From Polychytrium aggregatum (taxonomy: Eukaryota > Chytridiomycota > Chytridiomycetes > Polychytriales): a DNA stretch of 64,000 nucleotides. A program made the translations under genes and the position numbers. The notes under the pieces were generated by a model, which saw only the letters and a list, made by a program, of their open reading frames with translations, searched no databases and was not told the DNA's origin. Below, piece by piece: positions 32,925 to 57,522 of the stretch (its first letter is position 1; the number at the start of each line of letters is the position of its first letter). The DNA lies in contig NW_026516225.1 in assembly GCF_025602895.1 (NCBI RefSeq), positions 595,636 through 659,635 of the forward strand, written 5' to 3'.

Positions 32925-33902
32925 ATGGATCCTGCCCTCGTGGACCGCCTCCGTGCCTTGGAGGCCGAGCTCGCCGAGCTCCGGACAGCTCGCGATGCTC
33001 CTGCCGCTGGGTACAGCGTGCAGATGCCGGACCGTTACGACGGTAACCGGCAAGGGTTCCGGGCATTCGTAAATCAGTGCAAACTGTATATACGAATGCA
33101 GCCCCACCGGTTCCCTGCTGACCCGATTGAGGTCGGATTCGTCATTAGTCTGCTCACTGGACCGGCTCTCCAGTGGGCGACTCCGATGCTTGAGATGGGT
33201 GATCCCCGACTCAACTCTTTTGGCGATTTCCTAGAACGCTTTTCCAAAGTGTTTGACGACCCTGATCGGGCCAGGACTGCCGAGTCAGTGATCACCACAC
33301 TGTCTCAGGGCAACCGCCCGTGCGCAGTCTATGCATCCGAGTTCCTTCGTATTGCCGCCGATACGACTTGGAACGACGGTGCAAAGATCTCGTTCTTCCG
33401 ACTTGGCTTGTCGGATGATGTCAGAGACGAACTTTCGCGAGTTCGCCCTCTGCCACGAGATCTGGAGGAGTACATCGAGCTTTGTAACGAGCTCGATGCA
33501 CGAATCCGCGAGCGCCGTCAAGAGCGCCGAAGCACGCCTGCCCGCTACCGGTCTTCCCAGTTCGCCTTTGGTTCCGCCTCCGCTGCCGTTCCCGCCATCG
33601 CTCCCGCGCCCGTCCTCGCTCCGCCGCACCCCTCCTACATTGTTTCCGAGCCCATGCAAGTGGACTCTGCCGTCTCTGGACCCCTGACCGCCGAGGAGAA
33701 ACAACGCCGCCGCCGCTTTGGACTCTGCCTGTACTGTGGCAAGAAGGGCCACTTGGTACGAAACTGCCCCGTCAAGTTTGGATCTACCAGAGCTACCGGA
33801 CCGCCCCCTGGACCTCCCGGCCCGAGGATCATCCGCACCATCGTTTACGAGGATGGAGAAGTGCAAGACTTCAGTTCGGGAAACGACCAGGCCCGGTTCT
33901 AA
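32925..33902 (+). CDS. C Gag with CCHC zinc knuckle
   Basis: 325 aa from the ATG at 32925. It has a short N-terminal coiled coil (RLRALEAELAELRTA), a Gag domain (about residues 30-185, with YDGNRQGFRAF and FFRLGLSDDV), a Pro/Ala-rich linker, and the knuckle CLYCGKKGHLVRNC with canonical spacing. A second, acidic tail follows the knuckle. The frame is intact. The slippery site is in its last 24 nt. Confidence 0.9.
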   Translation: MDPALVDRLRALEAELAELRTARDAPAAGYSVQMPDRYDGNRQGFRAFVNQCKLYIRMQPHRFPADPIEVGFVISLLTGPALQWATPMLEMGDPRLNSFGDFLERFSKVFDDPDRARTAESVITTLSQGNRPCAVYASEFLRIAADTTWNDGAKISFFRLGLSDDVRDELSRVRPLPRDLEEYIELCNELDARIRERRQERRSTPARYRSSQFAFGSASAAVPAIAPAPVLAPPHPSYIVSEPMQVDSAVSGPLTAEEKQRRRRFGLCLYCGKKGHLVRNCPVKFGSTRATGPPPGPPGPRIIRTIVYEDGEVQDFSSGNDQARF

Positions 33903-33924
33903 GTGAAGGCCTTGAACCGGAGCC
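33878..33924 (+). promoter_or_regulatory. C predicted -1 frameshift signal, touched by the A-2 insertion
   Basis: Heptamer G GGA AAC (33878-33884), 5-nt spacer GACCA, then GGCCCGGTTC pairing with GAACCGG plus GCC (one bulged A), loop TAAGTGAAGGCCTT with the gag stop. The A-2 target duplication AGCCG (33921-33925) is the last part of this hairpin. Confidence 0.82.
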
Positions 33925-33925
33925 G

Positions 33926-34715
33926 TGTTAGAGTCCAAAGGGGACTCAACGGCAAAAGAAGAAGTGAGCTCGAAGTGAGCTCAGGGAAGGCAAGGGTAAA
34001 GTCCGAAGTGGACTCGGAGAGGGAGCGAGGGAAGCAAAGATCCGTTCAAGATAAGACTAGTCTCGAAATGAGACGTGAGGAACACTCAGAGAATAAAGTA
34101 GAAGGCACTTTATTTAGTCCTATTTTGAACGCTGAGGTTCGACTACACATCGCGGGGGTCAGGCAATTTATAGACAAGTCCGGACTTGGCAGCGAAGGGC
34201 GGCCAAGGGAGGGAAAAGTGGGCGATCGAGCAGGGCGAAGGGGGCGATGCACGAACGAGGGCCGAGAAGGACCACCGAGACGAGCAGAGAACCAAAGCGA
34301 GAGAGGCGCAAGCAAAAGCGAAGCACCTGGCAGGAGAAACGTGCAAAGGCGAAGCAATGTGACTCAGCGTCAAGCAAGCGGATTGGTCAAAGAACAGATT
34401 GGGGCAAATGCATGCGAGATGAACAAGAGATCGGGGCGGTCAGGCAGGTCATGAGTCACCGGTGGGGGGACACATGACCGGCAGCCGAATTGCAACCAAT
34501 CGCAGCAAAGCGCGTGCACAAACAAACCGGCGCGTGCGAAGAAGACAAAGGAAGCGGAGCAGCGCGGGGAAACGGAAGTGCGGAATGGGCGGAAATGACA
34601 GGCAAAAGGCGGAAAATTGGAGGGGAACTGCAAAGCTACACACAAACAAGCAAAGCGCAAAGGAACAGCCAAGTGTGCAGTCAAAGTGGAGAACAAGCAG
34701 GAGCTATCCCTAACA
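33926..34715 (-). repeat. A-2 3' LTR
   Basis: 790 bp, ends TGTTAG and CTAACA on the plus strand. It is preceded in element sense by the polypurine tract AAGGAAGGGGATGA after the pol stop. Confidence 0.92.
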
Positions 34716-34727
34716 TCATCCCCTTCC

Positions 34728-36896
34728 TTAGCGACGAACTCCGGGCGTCGCCTTCGGCTTTGAGGGATAGCGAAGGTGGAAGTCAGCAACAAGATCAGTG
34801 GCGTGGGAAACATTGGCAGCGGGCTCCCAAGACCGGTCAGTCTCGGAATAGCCCTTCCACTGAACCAAGTACTGTAAGCGACCACGGAAGAGCCGAGAAT
34901 CGAGAACAGTCTCGACCTCAAACTCTTCCTGGGAGTCAACAAGAATGGGAGGTGGTTCGGGTTGGGTGAACTCGGGAACAATGTCCTTCGTTCGGGGCTC
35001 AAGGAGGGATACATGAAAGACGGGGTGGACTTTAAGTGTGGAAGGGAGTTTAAGTTCAAAGGCAACGGGGTTGATGCGGCGAAGAACTTTAAAGGGGCCA
35101 AGCTTTTTCTGGTCAAGCTTGTTGGAGGGACGAAGGGTGCGGATGTGGCGACGATCAAGAAAAACGAGGTCGCCAACGGAGATGTCGGGAGTGGGGAGAC
35201 GAGATTTGTTGGCCTGCAAAGTGTAGGACTCTTGGGCAACCCGGAGGTTGGCCTTGAGATCCTCGAGAACGGTCTGAAGTCGGTCGACACGTTCCTCGGC
35301 AGAGGGCACAACAGAGGGATCACGGATGATGGAGGGATCAAAAATGGGGTGATGGCCATGGACTGCAAAGAAGGGAGTCATGCCAGTGGAGGTGTTTTCC
35401 GAGTTGTTGTAAGTGAACTCGGCAAGGGGAAGGTGAAGGGTCCAGTCGTCTTGCAGGTAATTGCAATGGATACGCAAATACTGCTCGATGACCTGGTTGA
35501 GAACCTCGGTCGAACCGTCGGTCTCGGGGTGGAAGGCAGAAGAAAGGGAGATCTTCGTCTTCAGAAGCTCATTGAAGCGCCTCCAGAAGGCCGAAGTAAA
35601 CTGAGTTCCTCGGTCCGAAACAATAGACCGGGGACAACCATGCAAGCGGAAGATGTGGGAGAGGAAGAGTTCGGCGGTTTGCTCGCCTGTAACCGTCTTC
35701 GTGGTGGGCACAAAGTGTGCTTGTTTGGACAGGCGGTCCTTAACCACGAAGATGGAGTCAAAACCGTTCGAAGGTGGGAGATCCGTGATGAAGTCCATCG
35801 ACAGGTCCCACCAACGTTCGGAAGGAACGGGGAGAGGATGAAGTAAACCATAAGGGGAGTGACAGGACGGCTTGGCTCGCTGGCACGCTTCACAATTAGC
35901 AATGAAGCGACGCACAGACTTACGAAGCCGGGGCCAGTGAAAGTCCCGGGAGATGAGCTCAACGGTCTTGGCAAGACCAAAGTGACCAGCGGCAGCGGAG
36001 CAGTGACGTTGCTCAAACACTTTGAGCTGGAGCTCGGGAGAAGGGACAACGATCAGGTCTTTAAAGTAAAGGAGACCGTCACGGAAGGAGTAATCGCCAT
36101 CAAGACGTTTGGCGTTAAAGTCAGAAAGAAGGGAACAAGAAAGGGTGGCAGCTCGAATCTCGGAAAGGAAGTCGGGATTCGAGCCGATAACAGTGATGCT
36201 GTCGAGAGAAATAGACTCGAACAGCTGAAGGAAGTTGGTGGAGTGGAGGGAGTCACCAGGCTTTATCTCAAAGTCAGAACGGCGACTGAGAGCATCGGCT
36301 TTGGTGTTGAGGCGACCAGGGCGGTGGTAAATGCGAAAAGCAAAGTCAGAAAGGAATTGGGCCCACCGGAACTGGCGGCGAGAAAGTTGGGAAGCGGAAG
36401 TGAACCGGGTAAGGTTCTGATGATCAGAGAAGACAAGAGTGGGATGATCGGGGTCGGCAGCCATCAAGTAATGACGCCAGGCTGTAAAGGAATCGACAAT
36501 GGCAAGGAGCTCTTTGTCGTGGGTGTCATAATTCACCTCGGCGGGACGGAATTGCCGAGAGTGAAAAGCAACGGGGTGAAGAGCGCCGTCAGGGTCAAAC
36601 TGAGAAAGGACGGCACCCAAAGCAAAGTCAGAAGCATCGGGCTCGATGACAGCGGGTTTAGAGAAATCAAAGTAACGAAGAATAGGTGCGGAAGTGAAAG
36701 AAAGTTTAAGAGAATCAAAAGCCTCTTGGGCCTCGGGAGACCAAGAGAAGGTGGAGGATTTGGTGGTAAGGGAAGTCAAAGGACGAGCAAGTGCAGAAAA
36801 GTCCTTGACGAAGCGGCGATAAAAGTTTGCGAAACCAATAAAGACTTGGATGTCGCGAGCAGAAGAGGGAACAGGCCAAAGAGAAACGGCCTCGAC
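34728..36896 (-). pseudogene. A-2 Pol, late RT/RNase H to chromodomain, split by D
   Basis: Opens at the D insertion with VEAVSLWPVPS (the RT thumb/connection). RNase H (IEPDASDFALG), integrase HHCC (HFGLAKT, CEACQRAK), core (SMDFITDLPPS, VSDRGTQF, HPETDGSTEVL) and a chromodomain (LVQWKGYSETDRSWEP) follow. The frame matches the N-terminal piece at 43355-45004 across D. All catalytic residues are present, so only D disables it. Confidence 0.9.
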
Positions 36897-37197
36897 TGTG
36901 ACACGATTGAGGATAATCGAGGTATAGCCGTGAGCGAGAGCTTTCTTACGATACCGATTTCATCCAGAACGGATGAGAACTGACTGCTGTAGCACCGTGG
37001 GAAAGATTGTAGTGTATCGAGGGAGTAGTCCTGGGTTACTGTGTGTGTGTGTGTAGCTGGGGAACGGATAAGGAAATGGTGCGCGCTCCTGTATGACTCT
37101 GGGCGCGTCAACGCGTCAGGCTGCTGGACATATAAGGCCGCCCCCTCGCCCTGCTCTGCTGGAGATCATCTGGAAAAATATAGTGGCCTTGGCTACA
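36897..37197 (+). repeat. D 5' LTR
   Basis: 301 bp, TGTGACAC to GGCTACA. A (GT)n run and CATATAAGG (TATA box near 37,133) are inside. It reads the same as 43049-43349. Confidence 0.95.
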
Positions 37198-37209
37198 TGG
37201 TAGCATCGG
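37198..37209 (+). other. D tRNA-type primer binding site
   Basis: TGGTAGCATCGG directly after the LTR, the same 12 nt as in family B. TGGTAGCA fits the initiator Met tRNA 3' end. Confidence 0.78.
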
Positions 37210-37240
37210 CAACGACGGTTCTCCTCTCGCGTCCAGTTTT

Positions 37241-38075
37241 CCCAACGTTCCGATCTCTCCTCCTGTCTGTCTGCCCGAGGCCCCCGCCGTCTGCCCAACG
37301 TTCCGATCTCTCCTGTGAGGCTCTGCCGTGAGCCTGTCTGTCTGCCCGAGGCCCCCGCCGTCTGCCCAACGTTCCGATCTCTCCTGTGAGGCTCTACCGT
37401 GAGCCTGTCTGTCTGCCCGAGGCCCCGCCGTCTGCCCAACGCTCCGATCTCTCCTGTGAGGCTCTGCCGTGAGCCTGTCTGTCTGCCCAAGGCCCCCGCC
37501 GTCTGCCCAACGTTCCGATCTCTCCTGTGAGGCTCTGCCGTGAGCCTGTCTGTCTGCCCGAGGCCCCGCCGTCTGCCCAACGCTCCGATCTCTCCTGTGA
37601 GGCTCTGCCGTGAGCCTGTCTGTCTGCCCAAGGCCCCCGCCGTCTGCCCAACGTTCCGATCTCTCCTGTGAGGCTCTGCCGTGAGCCTGTCTGTCTGCCC
37701 GAGGCCCCGCCGTCTGCCCAACGCTCCGATCTCTCCTGTGAGGCTCTGCCGTGAGCCTGTCTGTCTGCCCGAGGCCCCGCCGTCTGCCCAACGCTCCGAT
37801 CTCTCCTGTGAGGCTCTGCCGTGAGCCTGTCTGTCTGCCCAAGGCCCCCGCCGTCTGCCCAACGTTCCGATCTCTCCTGTGAGGCTCTGCCGTGAGCCTG
37901 TCTGTCTGCCCAAGGCCCCCGCCGTCTGCCCAACGTTCCGATCTCTCCTGTGAGGCTCTGCCGTGAGCCTGTCTGTCTGCCCAAGGCCCCCGCCGTCGGC
38001 CCAACGTTCCGATCTCTCCTGTGAGGCTCTGCCGTGAGCCTGTCTGTCTGCCCAAGGCCCCCGCCGTCTGCCCGA
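37241..38075. repeat. 70/71-bp tandem repeat array in the D leader, about 11.8 copies
   Basis: Units contain CTGTCTGTCTGCCC, then (C/A)GAGG or AAGG, CCCC(C)GCCGTCTGCCC, AACG(T/C)TCCGATCTCTCC and TGTGAGGCTCTGCCGTGAG. A run of four or five C makes units 70 or 71 bp, and the T/C variant (ACGTTCC or ACGCTCC) goes with that length. The array fills almost all of the 913-nt leader between LTR and gag. It also creates long repetitive frames on the minus strand, which I do not count as genes. Confidence 0.92.
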
Positions 38076-38110
38076 CGCCCGAACTTGCTGGGGAGGCCCT
38101 GCCAGTACCC

Positions 38111-41100
38111 ATGACGGAGGATACAATTACTTTTGAAGACCTTATTGCAGGGGAGTGGAAGCAATTCTGCAGTGTGGATGGCGACCTCAATCGGCTTGCC
38201 ATCTCACTCACCCCCGAACAGCAAACCCTGGTCAGAACATTTTCTGCCAATTATCGACTCCGAGGACCCGCTGCAACGGACGTTCAACACACCCAACGCC
38301 AGTGGGAGATCAAGGTTGCTTTCCTCAGAAAGCTGGAGGCTGCGGTGCCGCCTTTCAAAGGCAGCCGCGAGGCCGGCACTGTGAATGCCTTCCTTGTTTC
38401 AATGGATCAGGTTTTCTCGTATGCGGAGGACTACTATGTCGGACCAGCCCAGGTCCAGGCTGCCGCGACCCACTTCCAAGACAAAGCTCACACATGGTGG
38501 TTCTCGCAGGACAACGCTGCCATGAGGTCCTCGTTAGACTCGTGGCAGAGCCTGCGGGACATCATAGTGGCAACATTCATTCCTGCGGACTCAGCCACAA
38601 AGGCTGAACAGGAACTTAAAGCCTTTTGCCAAGCAAAGAAGCTTCGAAGCCTCTCCAAGTATATCGAGCGATTCCTGGAGCTCTCCGCAGCCGCAACAAA
38701 ATTGACCACCTTTTCGAAGACCGGCTACTTCGTGGGCGGCCTTCACGACTCAGTGAGGCCGTATGTCCAGATGCTGCCTAACTACGAGACGGAGCTCCGC
38801 GAGGACATTCCAGCACTGATCCGAGAGACGCTTCGTCTCGGCAGCATCTGGGACAAACAAGCTGCAACGGCTTATCAGCCCCCGCCTCCGCCGCCGCTCC
38901 CGCAAGTAGTCCCCATGGACATCGATGCTATCCATAGGGGACCAAGAGGTAGTGGCTCGTACCTCTCCTCACGAGAGAGAGAGTTCCTTATACGAAACAA
39001 AGGGTGTTTCTACTGCCGCAAAGCCAATGCTGGGCATGTAGCCGCCCGTTGCCCGGAGAAGGAGAGGAACAAGACCCGTCAGAGAATCCCCGTGCGACAA
39101 GTCACGGCGACCTACGACCCCTACGAGCAAACGAACGCCTCCCACAGCTACCGATTGGAACCTCCCAATGCCACCGAGCCAAGACAGTCTCATGTTGGAA
39201 GCGATGACTCCCCTCAGTACGTATTCGGACCTGCTGCTCCGGACAATCGTGACAAGCCTGGACTAACGGGTTGCCGCTCTCCAGTCAAGGTTGAACAAGT
39301 TCAAGGAGAGCAGACCCGTGGCCAGGAAGTCACGAGAAGTCCGCATGGGAGCGCAGATGCCGAGGTACATGAGGGTGATGTCTACGCTTGCCAAATAAAG
39401 ACACTACCAAGTTCAATCGACCTGACGAGAGTGGTCGGGAAGCGAAGAGAGCCACCGCACGAAGGAGCAATGAACGCCATATCAGAGAGCGCTTGCTTCC
39501 ACTTCGTGGGTGCTGCTGGGGGACCAACCGGCATTCAAAAGCGCATCCGGTTCCTGCGAGACTCTGGAGCCAAGGGCAACGTTATCAAGCAAGCCCTAGC
39601 CCAGAGTCTAGGATGCAAGATGATCCCCTGCGATATACAGCTACGATTTGCGGACGATCGCACTTCTGTCTCGACAACAGCCACGGTCATCAGCCTCCGA
39701 TGTGGATCGTACACGAGGCTCATCAATTGTGTTGTCGCCGACATTAAAGATGACCTCATCCTGGGCAATCCATTCGATGAGGAGGTCCGCGTCCTGGATC
39801 AGAGGACCCAGGAGGGTCGGACAAGGATCACTTTCGTGGATCGGCGTAACACCCGACATGTTTGGACCAGCCTGCCAGCCGTGAAGGATCAACGAGTTAG
39901 GGCGATCCACATCGAAGCGGTATCCTTCAAGCAGCTCCAGAGAGAACTCAAAGAAGATGAAGTGCAGGTTGGAGTCGTCTTGGTAAGCCAATCCGAGGTC
40001 ACCCAGATTAACAGAAACCCGAACGATAAGTCGCTGGCGGAACAGAAGGAGGAATACCTGGCCAAGCTTCCGCCAGCCATCCGATCTGTCCTGGAGAGAT
40101 ACATGGACGTATTCGAGGACCCCAAAGGTCTGCCCCCGCCTCGGCCGGAAGATCAGCACATCGAGCTGATCGATTCGAGGAAGCCTCCACCGTACAGACC
40201 CATCTTCCACTTGAGTCCCGAGGAGTTGACGGTGCTGAAGGCCAAGCTGGACGAGTTGCTCGAGAAGGAGCATATCCGCCCCTCGACATCCAACTACGGT
40301 GCTCCGGTACTCTTTGTCAAAAAGGCCGACGGCACATTACGTATGTGTGTGGACTACAGGGCATTGAACGCCAACACGGTCAAGAACCGCACTCCGCTTC
40401 CGTTCATTGCGGAGATGCGGGACCGCTTGGCAAACAAAAGATTCTTCAGCGGACTCGATGTTCGCGACGGGTTCAACACGGTCCGCATGGATGAAGGCAG
40501 CATTGCGAAGACGGCCTTTCGGACAAGATATGGAACATTTGAATACCTAGTAATGCCGATGGGGCTTACCAACTCCCCGGCCTGCTTCATGACGATGATG
40601 AACCGCATATTTCACGAGTTCTACGACAAGTTTATGGTCGCCTATGTCGACGATGTCCTTGTCTACTCGGACACTTTAGAAGAGCATGCAGCCCACCTGG
40701 AACGAGTTCTCAAGAAGTTTAAGGAGAACGGCCTCTATGCCAAGTTGATGAAGTGCAGCTTCGCTCAGGAATCGGTCCCGTTCTGTGGACATGAGGTGTC
40801 CAGACATGGGCTGAGTATCACGAAGGACAAGGCCAACGCTGTCCTGGACTTTGGCCAGCTGTCCTCGATCACGGATGTGCAAGCCTTCCTGGGACTCACC
40901 AACTGGGTGAAGGACTTCATCCCCGGATACGCCGAGATATGTCTGCCATTGACAGGGCTACTTCCGAAGAACACCGGATGGATATGGACCGAACAGGAAC
41001 AGACCGCGGTAAGGGTGCTTCAGCACCACATATCGTCATACCCGGTCCTGAGATTCTACGACACCCAACTGCCGGTCGAGGTCCACTCTGACGCCTCCCG

Positions 41101-43018
41101 CTATGCGGGGGGTGGGGTGATCTTGCAACGATTCGACGATGGGCTTCACCCCATCCTGTATTGGTCCAGGAAGTGGACGAACACTGAACGCAACTACTCG
41201 ACGTACGAGCATGAACTGCTGGCATTGCATGATTTAGTCAAACATGGTCGGCCATATCTGATGGGTTGCCAGTTCCATGTGGTTACGGACCATAAGGCAC
41301 TCATCTGGCTCAACACCCAAGCCAATATCAATCGACGCCAGGCCCGGTGGATCCTGGATTTTCAAGATTATGACTTCACTATTGAACATGTCCCCGGATC
41401 TCGAAACACAATCGCAGATGTACTCAGTCGAGCGCCATGCCACAGGCCCCTCTGCTCCAAGTGTAGGGGGAAGATTGACTCGGACACAGCTGCAGTCGAT
41501 GTGAGGCCGGTCACGACCAGTCTCTCTGCCTCTTCCCTCCGTGACGAAGTAGGAGACGCTCTGGGGAACGATGAATTGGCAATGACACTGCAGAAGTATC
41601 TCGATGGTCAGGATGTAGATGGCCGCTCCAAGGACGCACCACTGGAGCGTCTTACAAGAGTGGATGGCCTGATCTTTTACGACCACGATCGACTCTACGT
41701 CCCGAAGGTGGAGTCGATACGAACACGGATCCTTCAAGAGCACCACGACGTCATCACTGTGGGCCATGTTGGACAGCTACGGACGCTCGAAAAGATTTCG
41801 CGCCAGTTCTGGTGGCCCACGTTGCGAGCGGATGTGACCCGCTATGTTGCAGCATGCGAGGTGTGCCAGAAGTCCAAACCCCGCAACCACCTCCTCGACG
41901 GCCTGCTGCATCCGTTGCCCATCCCTGAGGAACGATTCAGCTCGGTGTCCATGGACTTTGCCTTTATGCCACTGTCGAAGAAAGGCAACGACAAGTGTCT
42001 GATCCTGGTGGATCGACTCACCAAGCTGGCACGGTTCGTTCCGTGCACAACCAAGTCCACGGCCGAGGACGTGGCATTGTTGTTTATTCAATACTGGGTC
42101 GTCTCCTTCGGACTCCCGACGGAGCTAATCTCGGACCGAGACTCCCTTTTCACATCGAACTTTTGGATAAAAGTCCTGACCACGCTTAAGATTTCCCAGA
42201 AGCTTACGACGGCCCGGCACCAACAGGCCAATGGCCAAGCCGAAGCAACGGTCAAGGACCTCAAGCAAAGACTGGTCCCATTCGCCAACTACAAGGGCGA
42301 TAATTGGGACGAGGTGGTGCACCTGCTGGAGTTTGGACACAACGACTCGGTGCACACCTCCACCGGATTCTCCCCATTCTATTTGGCATTCGGGGTACAC
42401 CCAAGGACGATGCCCGGCAACGAGCATGCCACCGATGATCGAGTGGCAACCTGGAGTCTCCTGGAGGACCTCGAAGCCATACGAAGGATTGCAACACAAC
42501 AACTCCAGGAGGCTCAGGATCATCAAACCCGGAGCGGGAACGAGAGAAGACAGGCGGGGGAGGAGCTCAAGGTTGGAGACATGGTCCTCCTTGAGCGCGA
42601 AGGTATCAACTGGGAGGCCCACAAGTTCAGGCCAGACCAAATCATCCCGCGTCGGCTGGGTCCGTTCAAGATTACGGAGATCGAAGGACTCAACCACACC
42701 CTGGAGCTACCCCCTACACTAAGCCACATACACCCGACATTCCACCGCAAACTCCTGCGGAAGTTTATTGAGACGCCGGACGACTTCGCTTCAAGAGCGA
42801 CTTACACAAGACCACCTGCAATCTCGGACGTCGAACCAATATTCAAGGTGGAGAAGTTGGTCAACGACAGAAAATACCGCAGGAAGCAACAGTACCTGGT
42901 ACTGTGGGAAGGATATCCCCTTGAAGATGCCACTTGGGAATACGAAGACAACATCGCGGATGATGTGATAGGAGATTACTGGAGAGAGAAGGATGTGGGT
43001 GTAGGGAGTAGTATGTAG
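38111..43018 (+). CDS. D Gag-Pol polyprotein, single frame
   Basis: 1635 aa from the ATG at 38111. Order: Gag domain (about residues 75-240, with AHTWWFSQDNAAM), a zinc knuckle CFYCRKANAGHVAARC with two extra residues (C-X2-C-X6-H-X4-C), retropepsin (FLRDSGAKGNVI, about 480), RT (VMPMGLTNSPA, catalytic YVDDVLVYS), RNase H (VHSDASRYAGG), integrase HHCC (CEVCQKSK), core (SMDFAFMPLSK, LISDRDSLFT, HQQANGQAEAT) and a C-terminal chromodomain (LVLWEGYPLEDATWEYE). No gag stop exists, so Gag must be made by proteolysis or another route. It differs from all other families in the window, which split gag and pol. All catalytic residues are present. Confidence 0.95.
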   Translation: MTEDTITFEDLIAGEWKQFCSVDGDLNRLAISLTPEQQTLVRTFSANYRLRGPAATDVQHTQRQWEIKVAFLRKLEAAVPPFKGSREAGTVNAFLVSMDQVFSYAEDYYVGPAQVQAAATHFQDKAHTWWFSQDNAAMRSSLDSWQSLRDIIVATFIPADSATKAEQELKAFCQAKKLRSLSKYIERFLELSAAATKLTTFSKTGYFVGGLHDSVRPYVQMLPNYETELREDIPALIRETLRLGSIWDKQAATAYQPPPPPPLPQVVPMDIDAIHRGPRGSGSYLSSREREFLIRNKGCFYCRKANAGHVAARCPEKERNKTRQRIPVRQVTATYDPYEQTNASHSYRLEPPNATEPRQSHVGSDDSPQYVFGPAAPDNRDKPGLTGCRSPVKVEQVQGEQTRGQEVTRSPHGSADAEVHEGDVYACQIKTLPSSIDLTRVVGKRREPPHEGAMNAISESACFHFVGAAGGPTGIQKRIRFLRDSGAKGNVIKQALAQSLGCKMIPCDIQLRFADDRTSVSTTATVISLRCGSYTRLINCVVADIKDDLILGNPFDEEVRVLDQRTQEGRTRITFVDRRNTRHVWTSLPAVKDQRVRAIHIEAVSFKQLQRELKEDEVQVGVVLVSQSEVTQINRNPNDKSLAEQKEEYLAKLPPAIRSVLERYMDVFEDPKGLPPPRPEDQHIELIDSRKPPPYRPIFHLSPEELTVLKAKLDELLEKEHIRPSTSNYGAPVLFVKKADGTLRMCVDYRALNANTVKNRTPLPFIAEMRDRLANKRFFSGLDVRDGFNTVRMDEGSIAKTAFRTRYGTFEYLVMPMGLTNSPACFMTMMNRIFHEFYDKFMVAYVDDVLVYSDTLEEHAAHLERVLKKFKENGLYAKLMKCSFAQESVPFCGHEVSRHGLSITKDKANAVLDFGQLSSITDVQAFLGLTNWVKDFIPGYAEICLPLTGLLPKNTGWIWTEQEQTAVRVLQHHISSYPVLRFYDTQLPVEVHSDASRYAGGGVILQRFDDGLHPILYWSRKWTNTERNYSTYEHELLALHDLVKHGRPYLMGCQFHVVTDHKALIWLNTQANINRRQARWILDFQDYDFTIEHVPGSRNTIADVLSRAPCHRPLCSKCRGKIDSDTAAVDVRPVTTSLSASSLRDEVGDALGNDELAMTLQKYLDGQDVDGRSKDAPLERLTRVDGLIFYDHDRLYVPKVESIRTRILQEHHDVITVGHVGQLRTLEKISRQFWWPTLRADVTRYVAACEVCQKSKPRNHLLDGLLHPLPIPEERFSSVSMDFAFMPLSKKGNDKCLILVDRLTKLARFVPCTTKSTAEDVALLFIQYWVVSFGLPTELISDRDSLFTSNFWIKVLTTLKISQKLTTARHQQANGQAEATVKDLKQRLVPFANYKGDNWDEVVHLLEFGHNDSVHTSTGFSPFYLAFGVHPRTMPGNEHATDDRVATWSLLEDLEAIRRIATQQLQEAQDHQTRSGNERRQAGEELKVGDMVLLEREGINWEAHKFRPDQIIPRRLGPFKITEIEGLNHTLELPPTLSHIHPTFHRKLLRKFIETPDDFASRATYTRPPAISDVEPIFKVEKLVNDRKYRRKQQYLVLWEGYPLEDATWEYEDNIADDVIGDYWREKDVGVGSSM

Positions 43019-43040
43019 TTAGAAATTTGATTTCAAATTT

Positions 43041-43048
43041 AGGGGGGG
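43041..43048 (+). other. D polypurine tract
   Basis: AGGGGGGG directly before the 3' LTR. It would prime plus-strand synthesis. Confidence 0.85.
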
Positions 43049-43349
43049 TGTGACACGATTGAGGATAATCGAGGTATAGCCGTGAGCGAGAGCTTTCTTA
43101 CGATACCGATTTCATCCAGAACGGATGAGAACTGACTGCTGTAGCACCGTGGGAAAGATTGTAGTGTATCGAGGGAGTAGTCCTGGGTTACTGTGTGTGT
43201 GTGTGTAGCTGGGGAACGGATAAGGAAATGGTGCGCGCTCCTGTATGACTCTGGGCGCGTCAACGCGTCAGGCTGCTGGACATATAAGGCCGCCCCCTCG
43301 CCCTGCTCTGCTGGAGATCATCTGGAAAAATATAGTGGCCTTGGCTACA
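43049..43349 (+). repeat. D 3' LTR
   Basis: 301 bp, TGTGACAC to GGCTACA, followed by the TSD copy TCGAC. Confidence 0.95.
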
Positions 43350-45004
43350 TCGACCTTGGCAGGGTCCATTTTAATGCCATCGGCAGAGATGATCATGCCG
43401 AGAAAATCAACTTCAGAAAGGTCAAAAGAACACTTGGCCGGATTGACCTTAAGAGAGTGTTCACGAAGGCGAGAAAGAACAAGCTTAACATGCTCCTCAT
43501 GCTCCTGGGGATCTTTTGAGAAGATCAGGATGTCGTCAAGATAAATGACAACACAGACACCAAGGAGGTCCGAGAAGATGTCGTTCATAAAAAACTGGAA
43601 AGCAGCGGGGGCATTTGAAAGACCAAAGGGGATAACATTGTACTCAAATGAGCCAGATTTGCAAACAAAAGCAGTCTTCCACTCATCGCCCTTCTTGACA
43701 CGAACCAAGTGGTAAGCATCAGGAAGGTCAAGGTGTGAGAAGACGCGGGCAGAAGAAAGTTTATCCAGAAGATCCTGGAAGAGGGGAAGAGGGTAACGAT
43801 TCTTCTTCGTGATGGCATTGAGGCCCCGGTAGTCGACGCAAAGGCGAAGACCACCATTGGGCTTCTTCACGAAGAAGCAGGGAGCACCAACGGGAGAAGA
43901 GGATTTGGAGATCCAACCACGTGCGAGGGCGTTGGTCAGATACTCCGAAAGAGCAGATTCCTCGGCCGGGGACAAAGGATAGACTTTCCCCGGCTTTGGC
44001 AAACGAGGTTCCTTTCTATCCTCGGTCCGTACAAACTCAATAGACAAGTCATACGGACGGTGAGGAGGCAAGGAAGAAGGAGGGTCAGACTTGAGGCTGA
44101 AAACGTCGCCAAACTCATTGTATTTGAGTGGGACACCTCGAGAGTCGACAGGGGTGCCAGACTCGGCATACACCTTCGTCGTGAGCACGGACCTTATCGA
44201 CACCGTAGGATACGTCTCCGGCGAAGGAGGACGGATATCCATTTGGGCAGCGAAAATGTCGAGCTTGTCTTCCCGTGCAAGACGGAGAAGACTCGCCGCA
44301 TTAACGAGCTCAATGTCGGGTGAAGATAAAGCCGTTGGCTCTTCAGAAAGCGAAGCAGAGTCAAGGCGGGAAGAAAGGGAAGGCGAAGTGCCAAAGGAGG
44401 GAACCGGTGTAAGGGAAGGACCGGAGGGAGGAAGAGTCAAAGGCGAAGTGCCCGAAGGGGGAGGCGAAGTGCCGGAAGTGGACGAAGTGTCCAAGGAAGA
44501 AGCAGAGACATCCGCGAGGATGTGTCCATCAGCAAGGCAAGAGGGATCGGAGAACGAAAGGGAGAGGGACTTCCAATTGACAACTGGATTGTGCAAGCGC
44601 ATCCAGGGAAGACCAAGAGTGATGGGAGTGGTGGAGAGTCGAGTCACAAGAAACGAAATCGACTCGGTGTGGGAACCAATGGTCAACGTCAAAGGCACGG
44701 TTTGGAAACGAATGAAACCGGCCGAAGAGCCATCAGCAAGAGAAACGGAGTAAGGAGTAGAAAGAGGGATAAGAGAGAGTTTATGAAGATCCGCAAAGGC
44801 AGGATCAATGAGGGCAAGAGCGGTGCATCCATCATCAATAAAGACAGAAAGGGAGATGGAGACCGGGCCAGAAAGACTCATGACGATAAGAGTGGCCGGA
44901 AGAAGAAGCTTATCGTCCGATAGTGACGAGTCAAGGGGGGAAGATGTTCGTATCGCCGAACAGACCACCTCGCTTACTTGCGAGGTGCTGCTCGGCTGTG
45001 GGCA
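43350..45004 (-). pseudogene. A-2 Pol, protease to RT, split by D
   Basis: Opens at the A-2 slippery site. Retropepsin has the D-D-G form (FIDDGCTALALID), followed by RT with LCVDYRGLN, FSHLDLPDAYH, VIPFGLSNAP and YLDDILIFS. The frame is open to the D insertion and resumes at 36,896. Confidence 0.9.
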
Positions 45005-45010: not shown

Positions 45011-45927
45011 GAGTTCCGTTTGACCAGAACCGGGCACTGCTGAACATCACGACTGCCGGGACAAGACTTTTCCCCGCAGTACAAACAGAGACCCTGCTCA
45101 CGACGTCGCTTTTTCTCGACGTCGGAGAGCTTAGCAGGGCGGACCGAGACAGAGTCAAGGTCCATGGGAGTGGGTGCAGAAGAGGAGGAAGAAGAAACAT
45201 GCGCGGGAGAATGGTGGTGATGGGGAGCAGAGCGAGAAGAAGGAGGAGGAGGTTGGGAACGGGAGGAGACCTTGAGACGATGAAGGGCATCGTCGTACTC
45301 GGCCGCTGCCTTGATCAACTCGGGCAAGGAAGCGGGAGCGGGGCGGAGACCGATCAAATGGAACTTGACTTCAGACTTCAAACCCTCCTTGAAGAAGTGC
45401 ATCTTGGTGGGTTCATCGGTCTGGACGCGGGCGGCGAGCTGGACGAAGCGGGTGGCGAAGGCTTGGCAGGACTTGAGCTGGACCAAGCGCTTGAGGTCGT
45501 TCAAGGCCTTATCTTGCGAGGAGGCCGTGTCCTCACCGAAGGTCGACTTGAGGGCAACTTCAAAATCCGCGAAGGAAGCCGGGAAGCGGTTGGCCATGTA
45601 GAAGGCGGCCTCGTACCACTTGAAGGCTTCACCGCGGAGGAAGGAGGTGGCGTACAGGACCTTCTGGCGCTCGGGCGCGAAGAAGGCGGGATCGGCGAGG
45701 AAGACCAGGTGGCACTGGGCGAGGAAGGCCGTCGTTTCGTCACGGGAACCTAGGAACTCCTTGGGCTTGTTCACCTGGTAGACCTGGCGGGGAGCGGCGA
45801 CGGGAGCTTGCAGATCTTGGATCTGACGATGGAGAGCAGCGTTCTGGGTCATGAGGGCGTTCATACGCTCCTCCATGCGCGCCAGGTACGCATTGAGATC
45901 TGCCGGGGGTGCAGCAGGCTCAGCCAT
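44974..45927 (-). CDS. A-2 Gag with Cys-only knuckle
   Basis: 317 aa, intact, differing from A-1 Gag by only a few residues. The leader between LTR and ATG (45998-45928) starts with the self-priming site. Confidence 0.9.
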   Translation of the reverse strand: MAEPAAPPADLNAYLARMEERMNALMTQNAALHRQIQDLQAPVAAPRQVYQVNKPKEFLGSRDETTAFLAQCHLVFLADPAFFAPERQKVLYATSFLRGEAFKWYEAAFYMANRFPASFADFEVALKSTFGEDTASSQDKALNDLKRLVQLKSCQAFATRFVQLAARVQTDEPTKMHFFKEGLKSEVKFHLIGLRPAPASLPELIKAAAEYDDALHRLKVSSRSQPPPPSSRSAPHHHHSPAHVSSSSSSAPTPMDLDSVSVRPAKLSDVEKKRRREQGLCLYCGEKSCPGSRDVQQCPVLVKRNSGNAHSRAAPRK

Positions 45928-45998
45928 CGGATCGAGGAGGGAAAGAGAGGCGAAAGAAGAAGAAAGGCCGGGAAGCCAAGAAGGAGCGTTCAAAATGA

Positions 45999-46788
45999 TG
46001 TTAGAGTCCAAAGGGGACTCAACGGCAAAAGAAGAAGTGAGCTCGAAGTGAGCTCAGGGAAGGCAAGGGTAAAGTCCGAAGTGGACTCGGAGAGGGAGCG
46101 AGGGAAGCAAAGATCCGTTCAAGATAAGACTAGTCTCGAAATGAGACGTGAGGAACACTCAGAGAATAAAGTAGAAGGCACTTTATTTAGTCCTATTTTG
46201 AACGCTGAGGTTCGACTACACATCGCGGGGGTCAGGCAATTTATAGACAAGTCCGGACTTGGCAGCGAAGGGCGGCCAAGGGAGGGAAAAGTGGGCGATC
46301 GAGCAGGGCGAAGGGGGCGATGCACGAACGAGGGCCGAGAAGGACCACCGAGACGAGCAGAGAACCAAAGCGAGAGAGGCGCAAGCAAAAGCGAAGCACC
46401 TGGCAGGAGAAACGTGCAAAGGCGAAGCAATGTGACTCAGCGTCAAGCAAGCGGATTGGTCAAAGAACAGATTGGGGCAAATGCATGCGAGATGAACAAG
46501 AGATCGGGGCGGTCAGGCAGGTCATGAGTCACCGGTGGGGGGACACATGACCGGCAGCCGAATTGCAACCAATCGCAGCAAAGCGCGTGCACAAACAAAC
46601 CGGCGCGTGCGAAGAAGACAAAGGAAGCGGAGCAGCGCGGGGAAACGGAAGTGCGGAATGGGCGGAAATGACAGGCAAAAGGCGGAAAATTGGAGGGGAA
46701 CTGCAAAGCTACACACAAACAAGCAAAGCGCAAAGGAACAGCCAAGTGTGCAGTCAAAGTGGAGAACAAGCAGGAGCTATCCCTAACA
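45999..46788 (-). repeat. A-2 5' LTR
   Basis: 790 bp, same length and, as far as compared, same bases as 33926-34715. AGCCG follows it. In element sense the TATA region reads TATAAATTGCC. Confidence 0.92.
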
Positions 46789-48110
46789 AGCCGTGCCCAC
46801 CGCCTTCCGAAAGTGAAGACATTGGTAAGGTGCCTTTGGTAAGTACTGGGGAAGCAGTGATGTGCGGACAGCTTCGCCTTGCCTCTGGACCGGCGGACAC
46901 TCTCAGCTCTGGCATAGTACCCGTGGCACCTCTGGTGTCACTGGGAACTGCACCTCATCCACAGGTGCAAATACCTGAGCTGTCCTGCCAACCCTCGGCA
47001 AAGTTAACTGTCAGTGCTAGCCGCAACCCTGGTGCCGAAGCTGGTACCGAACCAAAGTCTTGTGTTTCGTCTGTTCGTCGTTGCTCGTTGGTTGTTCCCG
47101 TCGCTGTTCGTCTTCCTTCTGGTGATTCTCTGTCGTGCGAAGGACTTGTCGATTCTGGTGCCTCTGGCAACTTTATCGACGAGGACTTTGTTGCTCGACA
47201 CTCTGTCCCCACCTGCTCCAAGGCTTCGCCCTTGGCAGTGGAAGGCGTGGATGGTAAGCCGCTGTCGTCTGGCCCCATCCTCCGCGAGACTGCTCCACTC
47301 GAGGTGATTCTCGGGGACGTCTCGCAACGCCTTCGGTTCGATGTGATCAGGTCTCCACATCAACCACTTATCCTTGGCTTTCCTTGGTTGCGCACCGCCG
47401 AGCCCAAGATTGTCTGGTCTCGCGGTCTTCTTTGTCTCCCTCCTTCTGTTGATTCCGACCCCTCTCCATGCACTACTTCTCTTTCGTCTTGCTCCACTTC
47501 CTCCAATGTCACTCCCCTTCTTGATGATTCCACTCCTTTGATTGATCTAAGCTCCTCTCCGCGTCTGCAGCATTGATTACCGCTCGATGCGCGAGTCTTT
47601 GGATGCATGCAGGCATGGAACGCAACCCCTGACCGTCTTTCAGGTCCATGTCCTGCCCACTGACGAGCCGAGCACTGCGACTGTCGAAGTGCCTGCGGAG
47701 TACAAGGACTTCCTGTCTGTTTTCTCTAAACAGGAAGCTGACTCCTTGCCTCCGCATCGCCCTTACGACTGCCCCATTGACTTGGAGCCGGGCAAGTCGC
47801 CAAAGTTCGGGCCTCTGTACTCACTGTCCGAGCCCGAACTTCACGCTCTGCGTGACTATCTCGACGAGAATCTTGCCAAGGGATTCGTTCGTCCTTCGTC
47901 GTCCCCAGCAGGCTCACCAATCCTCTTCGTCAAGAAGAAGGACGGCTCACTTCGTCTTTGCGTTGACTACCGCGCACTGAACGGTATCACGGTAAAGAAC
48001 CGTTACCCTTTACCGCTGATCGGCGAGCTGCTGGACCGACTTCGAGGCGCGAAGGTGTTCACTAAGCTGGACCTTCGTGGAGCCTACAATCTGCTGCGCA
48101 TCCGCTCCGG
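46789..48110 (+). pseudogene. C Pol, protease and start of RT, with frame breaks, cut by E
   Basis: Continues the C pol frame after A-2. Retropepsin reads GLVDSGASGNFID with a later ILGFPWLR. The frame ends at TGA 47574-47576 and RT resumes in another frame from about 47,587 ([42 protein letters not shown]). A third frame between them still reads like protein ([10 protein letters not shown]), so two small indels lie close together near 47,550-47,590. RT stops at E (48,111) before the YxDD motif. Confidence 0.85.
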
Positions 48111-48415
48111 TGTTATGAACGCGGTCGCCGATCATACGACGCGTCATTCATGACCCGCGCTGCATGGCCACTCGGGCGTGATTCATGACCGTGGGAAACA
48201 TAGGTCGGAGCTCGAATATATTCTCCGCAGGGCGAGCAGGGGAGGGTGAGGCATAGACTTAAATAGAACACCCCGTCCCCTCCTGGATGAACGCTAGTGA
48301 ATTATCACCTCAATAAACGATCATCACTCTCCTTGCCAGCCCCTGTTCAGCCCTGCCCCTGCTTCCTTGTTCTTGCCCTCGGTTCCTCAGTCCTGCCCCT
48401 GCCCAGTTCCTGACA
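48111..48415 (+). repeat. E 5' LTR
   Basis: 305 bp, TGTTATGAAC to CCTGACA. A CTTAAATA box is at 48258-48265 and CAATAAACG near 48,311. Similar in layout to LTR-H and LTR-G. Confidence 0.8.
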
Positions 48416-48442: not shown

Positions 48443-49405
48443 ATGGCCGACCCCAACCAGGCTCTCCTTGAGCACCTTGCCCTGCTCACAACCCAATGCC
48501 AACAGCAGCAGGAAGCAATCACCTTGCTTCAACAGCAACTCCAGCAACAGCTCCAACAACAGGAGCAAATCCACTTGCAACAGCAACAGTTCCAGAACAA
48601 TTTGCCTGTCGTTCAGCCCATCGTACAACCTATCCTGCCCCAGCCCAAGGAACCCAAGGTACCTTGCCCTGAGAAATTCTCCGGTGTCGCCCGAGAGCTC
48701 GAGAATTTCATCGCCGGTGTCAAAAATGTCATCGCCTTGCAACCTTCGCGTTTCCAAGACGAAGCCGTCAAGGTCCTCTACGTGAGCACGCTGCTCACAG
48801 GCCAGGCTCTCGCGTGGTTTCGCACGCTCCCCCATCCTCCCGCGACCCTCGAAGTACTCTGGGAGTCCCTCTCGGCCACGTTCGGAGACCCCCACGCGGT
48901 GTGGACCTCCAGAGCGCGTCTCAAGACCCTCAAGCAAGGCAGAACGTCGTGCGTCAACTACACCACCCAGTTCAAGCAACTCGCGCTCGAGTCTGGGTAC
49001 AACGACGTGGCCCTTCTTCAACACTACCACGACGGCCTCAATGATGCCATCAAGGACGCCCTAGCTCAAACCTTGACCATTCCGGAGAACTTGGAGGACT
49101 TGTCACGGCTCTGTATTGGCCTCGACAAGCGCCAGTACTCCCGCAGGATGGAGAGGGAACAAGGTTCCCACGCTTTCGGCAGTTCCAGACCACCCAGCAG
49201 TACCCCGATCCCAGACTCCTCTAGCCACGAGGCTATGCAAGTGGACGCCATCCACATGTTCCCCAAGGCGCCCCTCAGCCGCGAGGAGAAGGACCGCCGC
49301 CTCACAGAGGGCCTCTGCCTGTACTGTGGGGGCCCAGGACACATTGCAAGGACGTGCCCCAACAAGAAACAGCAGCACCCAAACTTCAAGGTCCAGGCCA
49401 AGTAA
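48443..49405 (+). CDS. E Gag with Gln-rich coiled coil and CCHC knuckle
   Basis: 320 aa from the ATG at 48443. An N-terminal Gln-rich coiled coil (about residues 10-60) precedes the Gag domain (about 75-225, with ALAWFRTLPHPP). A knuckle CLYCGGPGHIARTC has canonical spacing. The frame is intact. Confidence 0.9.
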   Translation: MADPNQALLEHLALLTTQCQQQQEAITLLQQQLQQQLQQQEQIHLQQQQFQNNLPVVQPIVQPILPQPKEPKVPCPEKFSGVARELENFIAGVKNVIALQPSRFQDEAVKVLYVSTLLTGQALAWFRTLPHPPATLEVLWESLSATFGDPHAVWTSRARLKTLKQGRTSCVNYTTQFKQLALESGYNDVALLQHYHDGLNDAIKDALAQTLTIPENLEDLSRLCIGLDKRQYSRRMEREQGSHAFGSSRPPSSTPIPDSSSHEAMQVDAIHMFPKAPLSREEKDRRLTEGLCLYCGGPGHIARTCPNKKQQHPNFKVQAK

Positions 49406-49423
49406 GGGGCCTCAGCCTGGACC
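49378..49423 (+). promoter_or_regulatory. E predicted -1 frameshift signal
   Basis: Gag-frame heptamer C CCA AAC (49378-49384), 5-nt spacer TTCAA, then perfect 9-bp arms GGTCCAGGC (49390-49398) and GCCTGGACC (49415-49423). The gag stop TAA is in the loop. Confidence 0.85.
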
Positions 49424-50427
49424 GCAAATCTGGCCCAACCCGCCGGGACACTGTTGTTTCCCACGCCCGGGTTAATAGCAGAAACTTCATTATTCCTTTG
49501 TCCATTTCCCTTCCAGACCAAAGAACGCTCCATCTTTCAGCACTCATTGATTCTGGTTCATCATGCAACTTGATTGATTCTCGCCTTGCCCGCAGTCAAG
49601 GACTCGACATCGCTGATCGCGAATCACCCTTGACCATCTTCCTTGCCGACAACAAAACCCGTTTCCAAATCGAAGAGCAAACCTCACCACTACCCGTTAC
49701 CTTCGATACTCTTTCATTTTCAGAATACCTTTCCTTCAACTTATTCAACTGCAACTCGCGCGAATTCTCCATCATCTTGGGTCTTCCTTGGCTTCAGATG
49801 CACAACCCAGTCATCGACTGGGTAGGTGGCCGCGTCTCCTGCAGCCATCCTCGTCCTGTCTCGCCCGACGCGCGTGCTTTGTTGACACCAACAGCTTCGA
49901 CGCGTGTCGCCAACCAAGTTTCCCACGCTCCCCTCACGGATCCATGGGAGCGCGACAACGACGACGAAGGTGCCACTGACCCCGTGACCGACAAGCAAGT
50001 GATTCCCGAAGCCTACCGTGACCTCGCCGAGGTTTTCTCGAAGGAAAAGGCCGAGTTACTTCCGAACCAAAGACCATACGACTGCGACATTCAGCTCAAG
50101 GACGAGAGCGTCGTGCCACCGTTCAAGCCTCTTTACAATCTTTCCCCTGCCGAGTCGGAGGCACTCGACGCTTACATCAAAGAGATGCTCCACAAGGGGT
50201 TCATCCAACCTTCCAAGTCCCCTTGTGGAGCCCCAATCTTCTTTGTGAAGAAAAAGGACGGAGGACTCAGGCCCTGTGTCGATTACAGGGACCTTAATGA
50301 AATGACTGTCAAGAATCGCCACCCCCTCCCGCTCATCTCCGAGCTCATGGACCGACTCGGGGATGCCAGAATATTCACCAAGATCGACCTACGAGGGGCA
50401 TACAACCTCGTCAGAATGAACCCCAAG
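49384..50427 (+). pseudogene. E Pol, protease and start of RT, cut by B-3
   Basis: -1 frame relative to gag. Retropepsin (LIDSGSSCNLID) with ILGLPWLQ, then RT start ([33 protein letters not shown]) up to NPK, where B-3 begins. No internal stop. The catalytic YxDD, RNase H and integrase are not in the window. Confidence 0.88.
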
Positions 50428-50736: not shown

Positions 50737-50745
50737 CTCCCACAC

Positions 50746-56478: not shown

Positions 56479-56480
56479 TC

Positions 56481-56492
56481 ATTTTGAACGCT
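56481..56492 (+). other. A-3 self-priming site
   Basis: ATTTTGAACGCT, two bases after the LTR, is the exact 12-nt complement of 56271-56282. The same pair exists in A-1, A-2 and A-4. There is no TGG-starting tRNA site. Confidence 0.82.
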
Positions 56493-56549
56493 CCCTCTTG
56501 GCTTCCCGGCCTTTCTTCTTCTTTCGCCTCTCTTTCCCTCGTCGATCCG

Positions 56550-57503
56550 ATGGCTGAGCCTGCTACACCCCCTGCAGACCTCAACGCGTATCTGGCGCGC
56601 ATGGAGGAGCGTATGAACGCCCTCATGACCCAGAACGCTGCTCTCCATCGTCAGATCCAAGATCTGCAAGCTCCCGCCGCCGCTCCCCGCCAGGTCTACC
56701 AGGTCAACAAGCCCAAGGAGTTCCTAGGTTCCCGCGATGAAACGACGGCCTTCCTCGCCCAGTGCCACCTGGTTTTCCTCGCCGATCCTGCCTTCTTCGC
56801 GCCCGAGCGCCAGAAGGTCCTGTACGCCACCTCCTTCCTCCGCGGTGAAGCCTTCAAGTGGTACGAGGCCGCCTTCTACATGGCCAACCGCTTCCCGGCT
56901 TCCTTCGCGGATTTTGAAGTTGCCCTCAAGTCGACCTTCGGTGAGGACACGGCCTCCTCGCAAGATAAGGCCTTGAACGACCTCAAGCGCTTGGTCCAGC
57001 TCAAGTCCTGCCAAGCCTTCGCCACCCGCTTCGTCCAGCTCGCCGCCCGCGTCCAGACTGATGAACCCACCAAGATGCACTTCTTCAAGGAGGGTTTGAA
57101 GTCTGAGGTCAAGTTCCACCTCATCGGTCTCCGCCCCGCTCCCGCTTCCCTGCCTGAGTTGATCAAGGCAGCGGTCGAGTACGACGATGCCCTCCATCGT
57201 CTCAAGGTCTCCTCCCGTTCCCAACCTCCTCCTCCTTCTTCTCGCTCTGCTCCCCATCACCACCATTCTCCCGCGCATGTTTCTTCTTCCTCCTCTTCTG
57301 CACCCACTCCCATGGACCTTGACTCTGTCTCGGTCCGCCCTGCTAAGCTCTCCGACGTCGAGAAAAAGCGACGTCGTGAGCAGGGTCTCTGCTTGTACTG
57401 CGGGGAAAAGTCTTGTCCCGGCAGTCGCGATGTTCAGCAGTGCCCGGTTCTGGTCAAACGGAACTCGGGAAATGCTCACAGCCGAGCAGCACCTCGCAAG
57501 TAA
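56550..57503 (+). CDS. A-3 Gag with Cys-only knuckle
   Basis: 317 aa from the ATG at 56550 (a TTG-started frame reaches back into the LTR but the first ATG gives the conserved start). Coiled coil, Gag domain, Ser/Pro/His linker and CLYCGEKSCPGSRDVQQC as in A-1. The stop TAA lies in the loop of the frameshift hairpin. Confidence 0.92.
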   Translation: MAEPATPPADLNAYLARMEERMNALMTQNAALHRQIQDLQAPAAAPRQVYQVNKPKEFLGSRDETTAFLAQCHLVFLADPAFFAPERQKVLYATSFLRGEAFKWYEAAFYMANRFPASFADFEVALKSTFGEDTASSQDKALNDLKRLVQLKSCQAFATRFVQLAARVQTDEPTKMHFFKEGLKSEVKFHLIGLRPAPASLPELIKAAVEYDDALHRLKVSSRSQPPPPSSRSAPHHHHSPAHVSSSSSSAPTPMDLDSVSVRPAKLSDVEKKRRREQGLCLYCGEKSCPGSRDVQQCPVLVKRNSGNAHSRAAPRK

Positions 57504-57522
57504 GCGAGGTGGTCTGTTCGGC
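57467..57522 (+). promoter_or_regulatory. A-3 predicted -1 frameshift signal
   Basis: Heptamer G GGA AAT (57467-57473), spacer GCTCACA (57474-57480), stem 1 GCCGAGCAG/CTGTTCGGC (57481-57489 and 57514-57522, one G-U), stem 2 CACCTCGC/GCGAGGTG (57490-57497 and 57504-57511), 2-nt bulge GT, loop AAGTAA. Confidence 0.85.

Follow-up and report, generated by a model that had tools for sequence, protein, structure and literature searches.

The 64,000-nucleotide (nt) stretch of the chytrid fungus Polychytrium aggregatum analysed here (NCBI RefSeq assembly GCF_025602895.1, contig NW_026516225.1, positions 595,636 to 659,635 of the forward strand; hereafter the window) is a stack of Ty3/gypsy retrotransposons nested in each other. 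In families A, B, C, E, and F, pol lies in the -1 frame relative to gag, and each gag-pol junction combines a heptamer of the form X XXY YYZ, a spacer of 5 or 7 nt, and a hairpin (stem 1) whose stem or loop holds the gag stop codon. These sites are interpreted as predicted -1 programmed ribosomal frameshift signals setting the ratio of Gag to Gag-Pol in young Ty3/gypsy chromoviruses, a reading to which we assign a probability of roughly 0.9. A ribosome translating gag would pause as stem 1, 5-7 nt past the heptamer, meets the mRNA entry; the tRNAs in the P and A sites would shift back by one base and pair anew (GGA-AAY to GGG-AAA, or CCA-AAC to CCC-AAA), after which translation would continue in pol. 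Ribosomes that do not slip would open the stem, reach the enclosed gag stop 4-9 codons later, terminate, and leave, and through this early termination the fold would re-form before the next ribosome. The positions of the heptamer and stem 1 fit standard tandem slippage. From these features we infer frameshifting itself, its efficiency, and the role of the stop in termination and refolding. The position of the stop would fit the model of Bhatt et al. 2021 (PMC8168617), in which non-shifting ribosomes terminate fast and the fold re-forms before the next ribosome arrives.

Frames, heptamers, and hairpins at the five junctions

Gag and Pol domains were found on either side of the junctions, and all five sites lie exactly where the earlier note on this DNA had placed them, with the frames, heptamers, spacers, and enclosed stops that it described. 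On the minus strand, the heptamer of B-1 (GGGAAAC, 16771..16777, read as G_GGA_AAC in the gag frame, and identical in B-2 at 24710 and B-3 at 54663) precedes a stem 1 of 9 base pairs (bp; 16734..16763, pairing 16755-16763 with 16734-16742), and the gag stop TAG (16756-16758) lies in its 5' arm. Family F, also on the minus strand, has GGGAAAC at 27313..27319 and a 10-bp stem 1 (27274..27307, pairing 27298-27307 with 27274-27283) with the gag stop TAA (27292-27294) in the loop. The remaining junctions are on the plus strand. That of C consists of GGGAAAC (33878..33884) and a stem 1 with one bulge (33890..33924, pairing 33890-33899 with 33914-33924), and its TAA (33900-33902) is in the loop, both in this hairpin and in the other register taken by the automatic stem rule. 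That of E consists of CCCAAAC (49378..49384) and a 9-bp stem 1 (49390..49423, pairing 49390-49398 with 49415-49423) with TAA (49403-49405) in the loop. That of A-3 consists of GGGAAAT (57467..57473; also present in A-1 at 31015 and A-2 at 45010 on the minus strand, and in A-4 at 63463 on the plus strand) and a two-part stem of about 17 bp (57481..57522) with TAA (57501-57503) in its 6-nt loop. All heptamers are in X_XXY_YYZ register, starting at 16777 (B, minus), 27319 (F, minus), 33878 (C, plus), 49378 (E, plus), and 57467 (A-3, plus). The spacer to stem 1 measures 7 nt in B and A and 5 nt in F, C, and E, and the gag stop begins 12 (B), 18 (F), 15 (C), 18 (E), and 27 (A) nt after the heptamer. 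Eukaryotic -1 signals are characterized by a heptamer in the upstream frame, a second open reading frame (ORF) in -1, and a structure 5-9 nt downstream, and this combination was found.

The junction heptamer is the single canonical in-frame heptamer of the gag frame in B, F, E, and A; C has another in gag, at the very 5' end. The gag-pol overlap spans 60 codons in B, 33 in F, 138 in C, 60 in E, and 41 in A, and if the heptamer could be placed anywhere in this overlap, the chance that every family has it no more than 39 nt from the stop is about 5.5e-4 by our own arithmetic. The pol frame of C is seen only when the inserted element A-2, which sits one base past the C stem, is skipped; it is then open across the empty site and runs into the protease domain. 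Expression of pol from a spliced or internally initiated RNA, with the heptamer and hairpin incidental, is highly improbable. The first ATG, GTG, or TTG of the pol frame does follow 42-120 nt after the start of the heptamer in B, C, E, and A, as internal initiation would allow; against it, the sole canonical heptamer of four gag genes adjoins the stop, and different elements show covariation in stem 1 while keeping it, without gaps, in register with the heptamer (see below). For F, where about 270 nt of pol frame had been reported to lack such codons, none occurs before 276 nt from the heptamer start.

The three copies of B are identical at the site, and over heptamer, spacer, stem, and stop A-1, A-2, and A-3 differ only in one spacer base. 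This agreement, and the recurrence of the -1 layout in 18 surveyed junctions outside the window, leave next to no weight for the idea that the separate frames are artefacts of sequencing or decay in a once-fused gag-pol, an idea that draws on small indels at the site in A-4, a pol of C split into two frames between protease and reverse transcriptase (RT), and a fused gag-pol in element D of the same window.

The stems are longer than the background of stem lengths would predict in most families (P = 0.011 for B, 0.005 for F, 0.059 for C, 0.011 for E, and 0.014 for A). The earlier note had proposed comparing folding energies with shuffled controls, and here the outcome was mixed. Minimum free energy (MFE) z-scores for segments of 50 and 60 nt are strong for A (-6.4 and -5.8), lower for C (-3.3 and -1.6, with segments that extend into A-2) and F (-2.7 and -2.4), weak for E (-1.9 and -1.0), and unremarkable for B (-1.3 and 0.0). 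Among the windows of the coding stretch examined, the junction 45-mer ranks 100th of 1581 in B, 19th of 703 in F, 27th of 594 in C, 11th of 654 in E, and 10th of 1608 in A. The whole-segment z-score is a poor test here, as the value of 0.0 for B at 60 nt was obtained despite 9 perfect pairs.

Related junctions and descent of the module

An RT profile of A, B, and F recovered 13 Ty3/gypsy contigs from the GTDB collection; these lie in bacterial genome records and are taken for eukaryote contamination. The 60 Ty3/gypsy RT matches in one such genome (G002, the cyanobacterial Trichormus metagenome-assembled genome (MAG) ERR2144891_bin.1, which contains locus L002) point to extensive contamination by eukaryotic DNA. 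No relatives were found in scans of IMG/VR or, besides G002 itself, among 388 genomes of its order, and a plasmid search returned three records, all below 60% identity. In 17 of the 18 -1 junctions surveyed, a heptamer (canonical, GGAAAAC, or GGATTTT) lies at most 18 nt from the gag stop; the exception, L008, also of the -1 type, lacks a heptamer close to the stop. The 18 do not include L010 (whose pol ORF already contains the protease motif), L031 (interrupted by a run of N), L037 (a 110-aa upstream ORF with no heptamer of either kind nearby), or the duplicates L015, L016, L020, and L036. Loci whose only listed upstream ORF is in +1 (L011, L040, L048, and L059) stood outside the junction survey, L040 being added later, and the many loci with no upstream ORF in the available stretch are uninformative. 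The final set comprises 26 junctions (5 from the window and 21 from relatives), of which 15 have the stop in stem 1 or its loop; in L026 and L072 it lies in the stem, as in B. Since the sites were chosen as heptamers, conservation of the first G of the heptamer was not counted as evidence. Plant viruses provide a precedent for GGAUUUU as a shift site. Four loci (L042, L055, L057, and L072) combine GGATTTT with a gag stop 0-9 nt later and a hairpin, and L055 additionally has a 7-bp match between loop and downstream sequence.

Eight elements, including E and F of the window, align without gaps over 46 columns from the heptamer to the end of stem 1. Two-sided changes occur in 7 of the 12 pairs (a count as high was seen in 1 of 500 shuffles), and the covariation score is 0.518 versus 0.167 for shuffled alignments (reached in 0 of 500) and at most 0.113 for slid versions; RNAalifold predicts the same 12 pairs. 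Adding L105, L108, L109, and L130 (n = 12, with L109 and L130 kept as decayed copies) gives two-sided changes in 8 of 12 pairs (2 of 500 shuffles as high) and a score of 0.492 versus 0.200 when shuffled (0 of 500) and at most 0.118 when slid. Stem 1 is real. The covariation that the earlier note had suggested looking for in other copies is present in related elements, and the copies within the window differ too little to show it either way.

A covariance model (R1) built from seven relatives, with no letters from the window, places C (33878-33924, E-value 7e-4) and F (27274-27319, E-value 9e-4) first and second in the window, to the base, and E ninth (E-value 0.045), these E-values being rough. 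The likeness to the relatives' model is clear for C and F and weaker for E. The claim that stem sequences are unrelated between families, with only the layout conserved, consequently stands for A and B and fails for C, E, and F because of the R1 matches, the shared register, and the covariation. In an RT tree of 45 rows (window families and MAG contigs) built with a quick method, A, C, E, and F fall into one starred clade of 18 rows with relatives having the module (Shimodaira-Hasegawa-like approximate likelihood ratio test (SH-aLRT) 100), with C and E placed from 29% of the columns. B lies outside that clade, near fused elements, and D, a long branch, is outside too. Ten of the 14 clade rows with a known -1 junction have a stop that starts exactly 18 nt after the heptamer (E, F, L001, L002, L024, L030, L035, L040, L060, and L108); the other distances are 15 (C), 27 (A), 9 (L026), and 0 nt (L003). 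A distance of 18 nt was also measured in L105, whose sequence is too short to be placed in the tree; in L025, another member of the clade, an in-frame stop takes the place of the -1 junction.

At the nucleotide level, C, E, and F appear to share descent, and their module looks inherited; that of A would share this common ancestor by phylogeny, with a stem of its own make, and the stop in the ancestral module would usually have started 18 nt past the heptamer. An origin of the enclosed stop separately in each family, through selection for a stop near the shift site, seems unlikely for the group as a whole. It would agree with the placement of B in another RT lineage with a 7-nt spacer and the stop in the stem, with the stems of L026 and L072, which hold the stop as well, and with the same arrangement in coronaviruses (PMC8168617). 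It agrees poorly with a relatives' model that finds C, F, and, more weakly, E, and with a stop distance of 18 nt common to E, F, and most relatives of their clade. For B, convergence is likely, and for A either origin may apply.

Predicted pairing between the stem 1 loop and downstream sequence

Pairing beyond stem 1 was evaluated as the best contiguous helix between the stem 1 loop and the next 50 nt, using the automatic stem rule and swaps of loops and downstream segments among junctions. Across the 26 junctions the matched mean is -12.4 versus -9.6 kcal/mol for swapped combinations, a value reached in 0 of 50,000 swaps. The 21 relatives alone likewise gave 0 of 50,000, with the same outcome for 19 junctions thinned by hand, and downstream windows of 30, 40, 50, and 70 nt gave 0 of 20,000 each. 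Control sets of pseudo-sites had P<0.05 in 2 of 30 cases. A first version with contiguous helices and hand-set stems on 22 junctions (the L050 stem being off by two bases) also gave 0 of 50,000; contiguous helices had taken the place of a still earlier, bulge-tolerant test. Loop-downstream pairing across the set suggests pseudoknots, and many relatives, perhaps also B and C, would form one of the H-type through downstream pairing of the loop that contains the stop or comes after it.

Within the window, B and C are the best pseudoknot candidates. The candidate stem 2 of B-1 (16688..16751, minus strand) is a perfect 8-bp match of loop positions 16744-16751 (CUCUGGAG) with 16688-16695 (CUCCAGAG), with P = 0.045 (0.051 with hand-set stems and 0.21 with bulges allowed). 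In C, the loop (33905-33910, GAAGGC) matches GCCUUC at 46802..46807 on the plus strand over 6 bp (P = 0.19); the two halves are separated by the A-2 insertion (33926-46788), and the match appears when A-2 is skipped. A weak candidate in E pairs GGGCC (49407-49411) with GGCCC (49432-49436) on the plus strand (P = 0.68), no convincing stem 2 was detected in F (P = 0.46), and none was found in A (P = 0.84). Candidates of 5-8 bp are present in the close relatives L001, L002, L030, L035, L060, and L105, and the stop codon itself pairs in stem 2 in L105 (automatic rule) and L035 (hand-set stems). L050, L051, L052, and L054 form a separate clade with GGRAAAC and a stop 0-3 nt after the heptamer, in which 7-bp loop-downstream matches differ in sequence between members.

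Several results weigh against the interpretation advanced here. Energy alone does not carry B and hardly carries E, given the z-scores above. The sequences in the covariation count are related to each other. R1 misses the stems of A and B in the window, and six partial matches (E-values 0.007-0.016), all in long terminal repeat (LTR) copies of family A, rank above E; the model is blind to the letters of the window, not to its lengths, as the fit of E and F to the 46-column register was known beforehand, and it gives 17-22 bits elsewhere in ten MAG genomes, at or above the scores of C and F. In 11 of the 26 junctions the stop comes 0-3 nt after the heptamer and precedes stem 1, and GGAAAAC and GGATTTT are not textbook heptamers. 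Taken singly, only 6 of 26 junctions reach P<0.05 in the pairing test, the five loops of the window by themselves give no significant result (6,189 of 50,000 swaps; Fisher P = 0.27), and in two close relatives, L024 and L040, no stem 2 outperforms shuffled sequence. The bulge-allowing test was weaker (Fisher P of 0.72 for the window and 0.002 for relatives; 116 of 20,000 swaps).

The pairing results bear most directly on whether -1 frameshifting in the window families is stimulated by a hairpin only, the pseudoknot pairing belonging to other elements. We regard this as less likely than not. The failure of the five window junctions in the swap test, the missing stem 2 in A and F, the 17-bp stem of A (strong on its own), and the lack of a stem 2 in L024 and L040, close relatives of C and F, all speak for it; the perfect match in B, the 6-bp match in C, and the candidates in six close relatives speak against it. 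The frameshift design put forward in the earlier note is well supported as regards -1 frameshifting with a stop-enclosing stimulator, and that stimulator may comprise more than a hairpin.

Known systems and the nested elements

The kind of signal described here is already known, since -1 frameshifting in Tf1/sushi elements has been published; outside fission yeasts, these elements predominantly use it at gag-pol (PMC10085805, citing Gao et al. 2003). Like A, B, C, E, and F, the Tf1/sushi chromoviruses MAGGY, marY1, REAL, grasshopper, and Tcn1 are Ty3/gypsy elements with pol in -1 to gag, and we infer that families A-F belong to this group. Sushi-ichi is a Tf1/sushi chromovirus as well. The excerpts of open-licence literature searched describe no covarying stop-enclosing stem, fixed stop distance, or loop-downstream pairing for Tf1/sushi elements, and within that literature the covarying stop-enclosing fold, the 18-nt stop distance, the loop-downstream pairing, and a possible link to PEG10 may be new. 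The loose description of fungal retrotransposons as having pol in -1 would give way to an RNA module defined by its covarying stem, the recurring distance of its stop, and a pseudoknot open to testing.

The ORF1a/1b element of coronaviruses (SARS-CoV-2) is alike in having a heptamer, a spacer, a pseudoknot, and a 0-frame stop five codons downstream inside stem 1, and there the position of the stop raises frameshifting (PMC8168617). It differs in its heptamer and in the place of the stop, which is in the stem there and in the loop in four of the five window families, and no kinship is claimed. The window families would provide a system unrelated to coronaviruses for asking whether a stop inside the stimulator raises frameshifting by clearing ribosomes and letting the structure fold again. 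Compared by description only, the signal of mammalian PEG10 (Edr) shares GGGAAAC, a 5-nt spacer, and a pseudoknot (PMC2800197, PMC4598141), and PEG10 is sushi-ichi-like (PMC10570562). For a profile built from the Gag of C, E, F, and six relatives, the best match among solved structures is the PEG10 capsid (E-value 2.8e-20; Ty3 Gag, 1e-9). It is conceivable, and we propose it tentatively, that the stop-enclosing -1 module is an ancient Tf1/sushi RNA element kept by covariation in fungi and that the PEG10 signal is its domesticated descendant rather than a convergent one, which would supply a concrete ancestor model for that signal. Because GGGAAAC is among the heptamers most prone to shifting on mammalian ribosomes (PMC5009743), convergence in PEG10 keeps a share of the probability. 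Tca2 and Tj1/Tosmo are also fungal retrotransposons with control of Gag-Pol at the gag stop, Tca2 with a potential 3' pseudoknot (PMC2194720, PMC10085805); they differ in that gag and pol are in the same frame with an in-frame stop and no -1 shift. One member of the RT clade that contains A, C, E, and F (L094 on G003 contig 103, the same element as L025) resembles Tj1 and Tosmo as reported: its gag and pol share one frame, with a single TGA, followed by CT, between them.

The order of insertion in the window was derived from self-comparison and target-site duplications. F (12200-28412; duplication GAGAT) interrupts A-1 and itself contains B-1 (from 12542; CAACC) and B-2 (from 20476; GGGTG). 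A-2 (33926-46788; 5-bp duplication AGCCG) interrupts C and contains D (from 36897; TCGAC). E is interrupted by B-3, B-3 by A-3, and A-3 apparently by A-4. The LTR pairs are identical in F (325/325 nt), A-2 (790/790), D (302/302), and B-2 (309/309) and 99.7% identical in B-1, which indicates recent insertions whose frames ought to be functional. The domain set of chromoviruses (Gag, protease, RT, RNase H, integrase, and chromodomain) was judged to be represented: a domain scan found the chromodomain and other Pol domains in A, B, D, and F, no protease model matched the pol of A at an E-value of 0.01, and C and E are cut by other insertions upstream of the chromodomain and the other remaining Pol domains. 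No Rfam family matched within the window at gathering scores.

At the shift site and immediately upstream (63463-63532), the A-4 copy differs from A-1, A-2, and A-3 by small indels in upstream codons, spacer, and stem, as expected of a decaying or badly read copy. In C, the protease and RT parts of pol are on separate ORFs (46551-47576 and 47551-48153) that differ in frame, and by this split at 47551-47576 the C copy looks dead even apart from its insertions. The left part of the window (1-10487) has several ORFs of 200-355 aa, three of which were scanned and showed no Pfam match. D is the counter-example within the window, as it encodes gag-pol in a single ORF (37967..43018, plus strand) without a junction, so the stop-in-hairpin design is not universal. 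Its 5' region, up to the start of that ORF, is covered by a tandem array (37141-38103) of 70-71-nt units of two alternating types with a period of about 141 nt.

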